From NCBI GenBank assembly GCA_902801795.1, contig CADCJQ010000007.1, positions 1-32,815 on the forward strand: a stretch of DNA of 32,815 nt, in the 5' to 3' direction. Positions 1,862 to 4,860 of this stretch are shown piece after piece (the stretch's first letter is position 1; each line of letters starts with the position of its first letter). Origin of the DNA: an uncultured Erysipelotrichaceae bacterium. GTDB taxonomy: Bacteria > Bacillota_I > Bacilli_A > RF39 > UBA660. The notes below the pieces were generated by a model. That model searched no databases, was not told the DNA's origin, and worked only from the letters and a program-made list of their open reading frames with translations. The position numbers were made by a program, and so were the translations under genes.

Positions 1862-2008
1862 TCAGTAATCATAAAGTGAAAACGAAGGACGAAGCCCATT
1901 CGTATTGTTCACGTTGTTTTTGAAGTTAGAAGGCGACAAAGACCAGAAAAACCCCAAACGAACACTACCAACAAGACTCCCTATAAAACGACGTAATCCT
2001 AAGTTAAT
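1862..2008 (-). pseudogene. Relic or shortened copy of the surface-protein C-terminal module
   Basis: On the minus strand this stretch reads without a stop as about 48 codons including WSLSPSNF and NGLRPSFSL, ending in TGA at 1864-1862. It matches the end of the neighbouring surface-protein gene in two blocks: 17 identical bases (1946-1930 versus 2459-2443) and 14 identical bases plus tttcactt (1897-1874 versus 2356-2333). Between the blocks it is 54 bases, exactly 18 codons, shorter than the gene and rich in AAC codons. No start or ribosome site was seen. It lies downstream of the gene in the same orientation, where a template repeat of a diversity-generating retroelement usually sits, but third-base differences at non-adenine sites argue against an intact template. 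A decayed paralogue is the simpler reading. Confidence 0.6.
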
Positions 2009-2104
2009 CTATATTAATAGTTTAACCCATATATTAAAATATCTATATATTCTAACAAATGAATATATTTAATATCATAACACTTTTTTAATTTTTTAGA
2101 AGCT

Positions 2105-2241
2105 CTCACATCTTGCTTAACCGCAAGATGTGAGATTACCTTTTCGTACTTATTTTCCTTTTCGCTATATCTTCTCCGAGCCACAAAAGGGTTTTCGTGG
2201 CTCTCCTTTTTCTCACTTTTCTCAAGCCCACATTCATGTGG
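2105..2241. other. Cluster of three hairpins in the 1709-2269 gene-free stretch
   Basis: Three inverted repeats follow one another. (1) 2105-2116 with 2123-2134: a perfect 12-bp stem, CTCACATCTTGC, with a 6-base loop. (2) 2178-2184 with 2197-2203: GAGCCAC/GTGGCTC, extended by AAAA/TTTT with one bulged base, followed on the plus strand by tcctttttctc, so possibly a plus-strand terminator. (3) 2228-2232 with 2237-2241: CCACA/TGTGG with a 4-base loop. None carries a T-run typical of a minus-strand terminator for the surface-protein gene. Apart from these and the relic at 1862-2008, I see no gene in 1731-2269; a short open stretch on the minus strand around 1740-1830 is not convincing. Confidence 0.6.
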
Positions 2242-2269: not shown

Positions 2270-4669
2270 TTAGCTTATCAAGTATGGAGATGCACTAGTT
2301 CCATCACCACTAACTACAGGCGTTCCAGGTTTAAGTGAAACGGAAGGACGAAGCCCGTTAGTACTGCTCACACTGCCGTACGGCAATAGACCCGACGAAG
2401 CCACGCGGAACTCATTGACGTAACCTTTGTAGTGGAAGGAGTAAGGCGACAAAGACCAGTAGAATTGACCCGTATTTAAATAAAATCCGCTACTACTTCC
2501 TGCTAATCCTCCTGCCAATACTATTTCATCTTCTGTTAGCATTGCTACTGGATAGGTTAATTTTTGATTTCCTTTTTGACTACTTACTGTAAATGCATCA
2601 TTTTTATTTACACACCCTAAACTTGGTTGATTTTTTACTGTACTTGTTCCACTTGCATAGTTACTTCTTTCATGTGCTCCATATAATAATGAAGACTCTT
2701 TATAATCACTTCCCCATGCTCCGGTTTCTGACCATCCATTATATCTTCCTATACTTCGATCATTACACCATATTGTATCTTCTAGTTTTCCTGTGTAACT
2801 TGTCATATTCGCTAGATACCATGCATCTATTTGGGTTTTTGCATTTGACGGATTGGTATTTCTTTGCATTTTTTCTATTGCTTCTTCTATTCCATCTCCT
2901 CCTGTTAAGGTTATGTAATATTGTGTGGTTCCATTTACATAATACACATATCTTAACTCTGTACATGTTGCATTGGCATCAGGATTATTACAACTATAAT
3001 GATGCGTTGCATTTGGCTCTGTTTCTGTTGCGTTCGTTAATTTATAATTTGTTCCATCACTTGTAAATCCGCTTCCAAATTTTGCTCCACTTATCCATCC
3101 TGTTGTATTATATGTGTATACATCTCCCCACATATATCCTACATAGGCTGGCGAATTACTTAGATTTGGATTTGTTCCTGAAAATGCAAATGTATTTGTA
3201 CTATTTAATGTGATTTGTGATGCCGTTCCAGTGTTATCACATCCATTGGAAGTAAGCAAATCTCCTTTACCTATCATTTGAATTTTTAATATGGTTGGAT
3301 CTTCACTTGATGCAGATCCCGAATAAGTAAATTTTACTATATTATCCGCTGTTAGCGTTCCATATGTATAAGACCAATTAATATTAGTTCCTCCGCTTCC
3401 GCCATAGTCGCCTAAACTACTTCCGTTGTCTTTAAAAACCGACCAACTTCCGCCTCCACTTGAAGTGAATGTACCACTTAATTGAAAAATATAATTATCC
3501 CCTGCTGGAACTTTAAAACTCAATTCTAAACTTCCGCTTACATGGTTAGCATTCCAACTATTATCTGTTGAATTAAACGTCCATACACCTGTATTTGTTC
3601 CATCAGTATTTGTTTGAACGTTATATTTATCCAAAGACAAAAATACTTTTTCATAAACTGGTCCTGTTTCTCCATTATATATAAGTTTTACTCCTCCAGT
3701 ATCTGTTGTTCTTACTGCTTTCCAACAAATATTATTGAATACTACATTATTGTTTTCTACTGCACCACGATAATAATATACTGGATATGAACCTGATACA
3801 TTTTGGGTTCCTGCTCTTAAATATACTCCTCTTGTATTATCCCAATCTGATGTTTTAGAAAAATCTACTCCTTGTTCTGTATCTACTCCTAAACTTTCAC
3901 TGGCCATTATATCACTAAGTGATCCTTTTACCCATATTCCTTCATTGGCTTCTACTTTTACTTGGAAACTAACTCCACTAGAATTTAGTGAATTCCATTC
4001 ACTTGTTGACATATAGGTTTTATTACCTACATTTGTTTCATCTGGTGTATCTGTTATCATCATTTTACTTGCATCAAAATAGGCTTTAATAGTAATTTTA
4101 CCATTTATAGAATTATCTGTATTAGTAGCATCAGGAGCAATATATCCTACTAACATCATTTGGTCTCCTACTAATGTATCTCCTACTAATTTCTTGTAGT
4201 GTGATGTAGTATAACTATCTCTATTTGTAAAATAACTTGCATCAGCAGTTCCTAAATTGTCATTAGCTCCATTTCCGTTAGTTCCTACTTGTACATCTAA
4301 ACTAATTGGTACTTGTACTGGTTTTCCATTTGATGTAATAGTTGTAACAGAATTAGTACTTGAAACTAAATATTCTACTCCTTCGCTATAAGTATTCTTA
4401 CCTGTTATAACAACTTCTACTGTCCCAATATTATCAGTATCATTATTTGTTATTAATCCATTACCATCCCTTGTTATAGTTACTGGAAAAGCATTTGTTA
4501 AATTAATACTATTTCCCTGTGTAAAATTAAATTCTATATCCCCTAATCTTAAGGTATTAACTGCACCATTTCTTGTATAGTTAAAGAATGAATAAGCTAT
4601 TCCACCTATTAATCCTACTAATACAAATATTCCAATAGCAATTAAAAAATTTTGTCTTTTTTCATTCAT
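2270..4669 (-). CDS. Large membrane-anchored surface protein with lectin-like (FGE/C-type-lectin-type) C-terminus
   Basis: A 799-residue protein. The ATG at 4669 is chosen because a strong GAGGAG site lies 7 to 9 bases upstream; a longer reading from 4714 would need TTG. Residues about 6-27 form one membrane helix with no lipobox or LPXTG, so the rest should face outward. Then follow β-rich segments (residues about 30-230), a CWKAVRTTDTGGVKLIYN-type motif near residue 313, an inserted Gly/Ser/Thr-rich β-sandwich-like part, and a C-terminal module (from about residue 588) with LTEDEIVLAGG, WSLSP and GLRPSVSL motifs. This module resembles the lectin-like folds at the ends of formylglycine-enzyme-like and DGR target proteins. 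Ligand unknown. The last coding region uses codons unlike the remainder. Confidence 0.75.
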   Translation of the reverse strand: MNEKRQNFLIAIGIFVLVGLIGGIAYSFFNYTRNGAVNTLRLGDIEFNFTQGNSINLTNAFPVTITRDGNGLITNNDTDNIGTVEVVITGKNTYSEGVEYLVSSTNSVTTITSNGKPVQVPISLDVQVGTNGNGANDNLGTADASYFTNRDSYTTSHYKKLVGDTLVGDQMMLVGYIAPDATNTDNSINGKITIKAYFDASKMMITDTPDETNVGNKTYMSTSEWNSLNSSGVSFQVKVEANEGIWVKGSLSDIMASESLGVDTEQGVDFSKTSDWDNTRGVYLRAGTQNVSGSYPVYYYRGAVENNNVVFNNICWKAVRTTDTGGVKLIYNGETGPVYEKVFLSLDKYNVQTNTDGTNTGVWTFNSTDNSWNANHVSGSLELSFKVPAGDNYIFQLSGTFTSSGGGSWSVFKDNGSSLGDYGGSGGTNINWSYTYGTLTADNIVKFTYSGSASSEDPTILKIQMIGKGDLLTSNGCDNTGTASQITLNSTNTFAFSGTNPNLSNSPAYVGYMWGDVYTYNTTGWISGAKFGSGFTSDGTNYKLTNATETEPNATHHYSCNNPDANATCTELRYVYYVNGTTQYYITLTGGDGIEEAIEKMQRNTNPSNAKTQIDAWYLANMTSYTGKLEDTIWCNDRSIGRYNGWSETGAWGSDYKESSLLYGAHERSNYASGTSTVKNQPSLGCVNKNDAFTVSSQKGNQKLTYPVAMLTEDEIVLAGGLAGSSSGFYLNTGQFYWSLSPYSFHYKGYVNEFRVASSGLLPYGSVSSTNGLRPSVSLKPGTPVVSGDGTSASPYLIS
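2333..2464 (-). other. GC-ending, DGR-variable-region-like 3' segment of the surface-protein gene
   Basis: Reading in gene direction, codons from the FYW of FYWSLSP to GLRPSVSL switch from the AT-ending use seen elsewhere to many NNC codons: TTC, TAC, TCC, CAC, CGC, GGC, AGC, AAC and GTC, 16 in 44 codons. Surface-type residues (Tyr, Ser, His, Arg, Gly, Asn) sit between fixed motifs WSLSP and GLRPS. In diversity-generating retroelements AAC template codons mutate at adenines to give NNC, so this is the expected look of a variable region. No reverse transcriptase or matching template was found here; the annotation is a pattern, not a proven function. Confidence 0.4.
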
Positions 4670-4770
4670 TATTTTCTCTCCTCTCATAATAATTTTTTTA
4701 ATTTGTTTATCCAATTTTTTATTTATATTTTACGAATCATCATAATACATTAGCCTAGATAAACATCCTA

Positions 4771-4831
<61 letters not shown>

Positions 4832-4860
4832 AGGATACAGGATGAGTTTTTTCTTGTCAA
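4832..4860 (-). promoter_or_regulatory. Predicted promoter of the surface-protein gene
   Basis: A perfect TTGACA (4860-4855) and TATCCT (4837-4832, 4 of 6 matches) are separated by 17 bases. The expected start point, near 4825, falls inside the (AGAC)15 tract. Confidence 0.55.

Follow-up and report, generated by a model that had tools for sequence, protein, structure and literature searches.

Diversity-generating retroelements (DGRs) are reverse transcriptase (RT) systems that rewrite binding proteins. Thiohalocapsa (PMC10907252), Treponema denticola (PMC4891356) and cyanobacteria (PMC7517822) provide known cases of remote targets and degenerate loci. In Thiohalocapsa PB-PSB1 (Dore 2024, PMC10907252), targets are dispersed, loci without an RT or a template occur beside complete ones, and activity in trans has been proposed for some. 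In T. denticola (Nimkulrat 2016, PMC4891356), remote targets, including one whose variable region (VR) fits a non-resident template type, were interpreted as what is left of core systems since lost. The remote variable proteins of cyanobacteria (Vallota-Eastman 2020, PMC7517822) are likewise dispersed and carry the VR at the 3' end, and cis signals such as cruciforms have been suggested for these targets. In BPP-1, homing requires a hairpin with a GAAA loop, the phage consensus being GRNA (Guo 2011, PMC3240598). Remote targets escape surveys that are anchored on the RT locus, a limit stated by Roux 2021 (PMC8144416).

The locus described here resembles all of these systems. It lies on contig C7 of a 1.51-Mb MAG that is 71% complete; the whole stretch of DNA analyzed, 32,815 nucleotides, is hereafter the window. 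Positions 2333-2458 are very probably the VR of a remote DGR target, and of DGR origin, because in position, codon composition, fixed ends, homing-site sequence, and post-target hairpin they match DGR targets, while RT and the accessory protein Avd are encoded on another contig. What began as a codon oddity is thereby documented as a remote DGR target, in a lineage of uncultured gut Bacilli in which DGRs are common. To it are added a family-specific hairpin and a template repeat (TR) relic beside the target.

Codon switch and variable region of the target gene

The target gene was called as an ORF of 814 aa starting at TTG (2270-4714, minus strand) and aligned (A1) with its paralog, the RT-adjacent target of the same genome on contig C3. 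Read from the sequence, its likely start is an ATG at 4669 preceded by a GGAG Shine-Dalgarno motif, giving a product of probably 799 aa with an N-terminal membrane anchor and a C-terminal variable domain. The first-pass annotation had pointed to a switch to NNC codons between the motifs WSLSP and GLRPS near the 3' end of the gene, at 2333-2464, and codon statistics bear it out. NNC codons make up 13 of 29 codons between the two motifs vs. 51 of 775 in the rest of the gene (Fisher p = 3.9e-8), with a GC3 of 0.69 vs. 0.14, and no other stretch of equal length within the gene has more than 8. Several codons of the segment end in NNT, NNG, or NNA (GGT, AAA, CTA, CCG). The coordinates were also correct, the variable core spanning 2333-2458.

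About 11 paralogous targets are dispersed over contigs C3, C4, C7, C11, C14, C20, C41, and C54, and the NNC peak occurs at the same location in 8 paralogs, making nine targets with the window gene. Horizontal acquisition of a GC-richer stretch, or its retention by codon selection, with no diversification mechanism, would account for the sharp change in GC3. However, the change falls at the same position in nine targets and always between the same fixed motifs, DGR flanking signals accompany most of the nine, and the template/variable relation on C3 speaks against it as well; we consider this origin extremely improbable.

Supported by NNC/GC3 statistics, a shared 14-mer, and adenine bias against a proxy template, the VR (2333-2458, minus strand) extends from TGGTCTTTGTCGCC to the homing-site-like CCGTTTCACTT (2333-2343). 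The 14-mer is common to seven VRs of the genome at the DNA level, despite the divergence of the surrounding genes. CGTTTCACTT is the VR-type end of the window VR, where templates show TTTTC or similar. For the adenine test, the template at L118, from a related species, served as proxy for the window VR's own, in an alignment that did not favor adenines: at codon positions 1 and 2, 21 of 37 adenines were changed vs. 3 of 27 other bases (p = 1.6e-4), and the bias was equaled in 2 of 500 codon shuffles.

Changes in the VRs fall on positions 1 and 2 of codons that were formerly AAC or AAT, and no blocks are shared within the variable core. Both observations argue against recombination (gene conversion) among dispersed paralogs or with a partial copy, independent of reverse transcription and akin to silent-cassette antigenic variation, as does the presence of a DGR hairpin and homing-site sequence. 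The roughly 11 paralogs, whose block ends are nearly identical, and the partial copy adjoining the gene would suit such exchange; as the sole explanation we judge it improbable, though gene conversion could act in addition to the DGR.

AlphaFold2 modeled the last 300 residues, together with 42 relatives, with a pLDDT of 91.8. Foldseek gave no clear PDB match for the predicted C-terminal domain. Among the six matches listed by VIA, several C-type lectin domains scored weakly (Z 2.2-2.7), and the best was an IgA peptidase (Z 6.9). The likeness of the predicted variable domain to the C-type lectin fold, the fold of the cyanobacterial proteins (PMC7517822), is suggestive only.

At the other end of the gene, a perfect (AGAC)15 tract (4771-4830) lies directly behind a sigma-70-like promoter (TTGACA/TATCCT, 4832-4860). 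The equivalent place of an RT-adjacent target in another species holds (AGAC)12 (L164:2705), and the paralog on C11 a single unit. The tract could render expression of the target gene phase-variable.

Hairpins downstream of the target gene

Many DGR targets of this family carry, directly past the stop codon, a hairpin with a stem of free sequence and the tip GAAA-ACCC-TTTC. It is found at the RT-adjacent targets L056, L060, L062, L118, L127, and L164, slightly altered at the C3 target, and also at remote targets. The window gene is among the latter: its hairpin, GAGCCACGAAA-ACCC-TTTTGTGGCTC (2176-2205, minus strand), was identified by covariance model R1, covariation, and DNA folding (-9.6 kcal/mol, z -4.7). 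Stem covariation scored 0.63, compared with 0.19 in shuffled alignments and at most 0.15 in slid controls. In the genome, R1 found 8 copies (E < 1e-4), each immediately 3' of a target; the window hairpin matched at 40.8 bits, with R1 built partly from this very copy. Since copies in this genome formed part of the training set, matches outside it provide the independent test, and all five of these that have upstream sequence follow VR-type genes (G004:C90, G001:C10, and three in G051). The three G051 targets with the hairpin family are L198, L200, and L201, and an RT search of G051 gave no match at E 1e-10. The post-target hairpin is missing at the targets on C54, C41, and C4:35.7k, and an Rfam search of the hairpin region returned nothing fitting.

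Like the hairpin/cruciform of BPP-1 and other phages (PMC3240598), this element sits just downstream of the VR and combines a stem of free sequence with a conserved 4-nt loop. In contrast to the GRNA loops on 7-10 bp GC-rich stems described there, here ACCC stands between fixed GAAA and TTTC. Because the ACCC loop is unlike phage loops, a functional role is predicted from position and covariation, and we regard the hairpin as a candidate target-recognition element. Cyanobacterial targets were linked to a resident template through TR identity (PMC7517822), whereas here the link is a covarying hairpin family, which offers a means to find remote targets that RT-locus-tied surveys miss.

A second hairpin with a 13-bp stem (2102-2135, minus strand; DNA fold -13.9 kcal/mol, z -7.5) likewise follows several paralog targets. 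Between the two, CGAAAAGG (2157-2165) is conserved downstream of the first hairpin in most WSLSP targets; its complementarity to the CCTTTT/CCCTTTT of that hairpin makes a pseudoknot possible.

A complete DGR on contig C3 and the search for a matching template

The first-pass annotation had proposed that an RT elsewhere in the genome may serve the gene, and had suggested looking for a repeat differing from the VR only at template adenines. The RT, whose absence would have refuted that proposal, was found; no template whose differences from the window VR are confined to adenines was present in the 71% complete assembly. The genome's one complete DGR, on C3, comprises target, template repeat, Avd, and RT, with the target gene and an Avd-like ORF upstream of the RT and the template repeat between target and Avd. 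Its template and variable repeats mismatch at 21 template adenines and nowhere else over 70 nt. The RT is the genome's single RVT_1 match (PF00078, above cut-off) and matches the PHROG reverse transcriptase family at 1.6e-75; its IGAMTSQ motif presumably fits the DGR-type signature. Avd matches the PHROG "Avd protein of DGR" at 8e-8, with bAvd and NCBIfam Avd matches below curated cut-offs. An RT is present in 70 of 145 family genomes sampled, and adenine-biased TR/VR pairs occur at the RT loci of many family genomes, several having no other mismatch. Residues 359-404, in the C-terminal part of the C3 RT (L001:1267-2742), additionally match MutS domain I (PF01624, E 1e-6, above cut-off); a mismatch-recognition-like part fused to a DGR RT would be unusual.

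Together, the RT in the genome, the homing-site sequence, the post-target hairpin, and a template relic close by uphold the earlier reading of the gene as a DGR target. The C3 template was rejected as template of the window VR: core and 3' end differ, and it fits its own C3 target. An exact-pattern search of GTDB genomes and viral contigs found no intact WSLSP-type template. Some remote VRs of Thiohalocapsa PB-PSB1 match an intact template elsewhere at all non-adenine sites, and reads show diversification there (PMC10907252); for the window VR, this assembly holds no matching intact template.

The window gene may nevertheless be active in trans, with an intact WSLSP-type template in genome sequence missing from the assembly and this and the other WSLSP targets rewritten by the C3 RT/Avd or by a second, unassembled RT. 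Such activity is a sharper form of the remote-target explanation and does not contradict it. The 71% completeness of the genome leaves room for it, the 14-mer is identical in seven VRs at the DNA level among diverged genes, and diversification in trans has been reported for Thiohalocapsa (PMC10907252). Against it, five incomplete congeneric genomes (this one and four others, one of them 94% complete) contain no intact WSLSP-type template, and the sole local template is shortened and has no spacer. We therefore treat ongoing activity in trans as a real possibility while leaning slightly against it.

Template relic and proposed cassette decay

A partial second copy of the VR, which the first-pass annotation had not noticed, was found by repeat search at 1874-1951, 320 bp downstream. 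Within it, at 1874-1945 (minus strand), this relic of a WSLSP-type template repeat, TGGTCTTTGTCGCCTTCTAACTTCAAAAACAACGTGAACAATACGAATGGGCTTCGTCCTTCGTTTTCACTT, has the fixed ends of the window VR type, asparagine codons within, and a template-type 3' end, CGTTTTCACTT, which contrasts with the CCGTTTCACTT of the window VR just as the two ends contrast in intact TR/VR pairs of the family. It is the sole non-VR copy of the VR 14-mer in the five congeneric genomes. The relic is short by about 54 nt of core, where intact templates have repeated AACAACAACAATG, and differs from the window VR at some non-adenine sites; on both counts it was rejected as a full current template. It is preceded by a template leader, TTAAAC..TTAACTTAGGATTACGTC (1990-2025, minus strand), identified by pattern search, common to the intact C3 template and C20, and also present at intact DGRs of the family. 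Many intact templates are followed 3' by the spacer GAAACAGAT..CTATGGA; it is missing downstream of the relic, and neither Avd nor an RT lies beside it. In the accessible part of the T. denticola report (PMC4891356), no relic and leader are described beside a remote target.

Since whole cassettes show the same succession of target, hairpin, leader, and template, decay of a cassette is the simplest reading of the window locus, and we infer this step from the arrangement of its parts. The locus would once have been complete, with target, hairpin, leader, TR, Avd, and RT, and would have lost Avd, RT, and the template spacer, the TR being shortened by deletion between AAC repeats. It would thus capture a stage of decay at which the relic still adjoins its target. 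At C20 and G002:C19 the leader follows the target with no template behind it (L043:2442-2477; L045 near 2163-2213), which looks like a later stage of the same loss. Transposons drove decay in Thiohalocapsa PB-PSB1 (PMC10907252); none were seen here.

Diversification would have proceeded by reverse transcription of a template RNA rich in AAC/AAT, errors at its adenines giving rise to the VR, with the cDNA then written into the gene's 3' end under the guidance of the CGTTTCACTT site and the hairpin. With its TR shortened and spacer lost, the locus's own template can no longer regenerate a full-length VR. To keep diversifying, the gene would depend on an intact template of this type at another site, perhaps in the 29% of the genome that is missing, for use by the C3 RT/Avd or another RT. 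As the relic is shortened and without RT or Avd, and no intact template was found in the genomes and contigs searched, the window gene is a remote, probably orphaned DGR target. A wider and more speculative proposal, toward which we are somewhat skeptical, is that a single RT/Avd serves a genus-wide network of about ten dispersed surface proteins, recognized through the shared ACCC-loop hairpin, targets spreading as whole cassettes and then losing RT, Avd, and template stepwise. If true, the hairpin would be a tag for DGR targets that have neither an RT nor a template close by.

The window also holds, at 2-358, the C-terminal part of a YhcG-type PDDEXK nuclease gene truncated by the contig start, and YhcG-like fragments also lie close to targets in L085 and L200.
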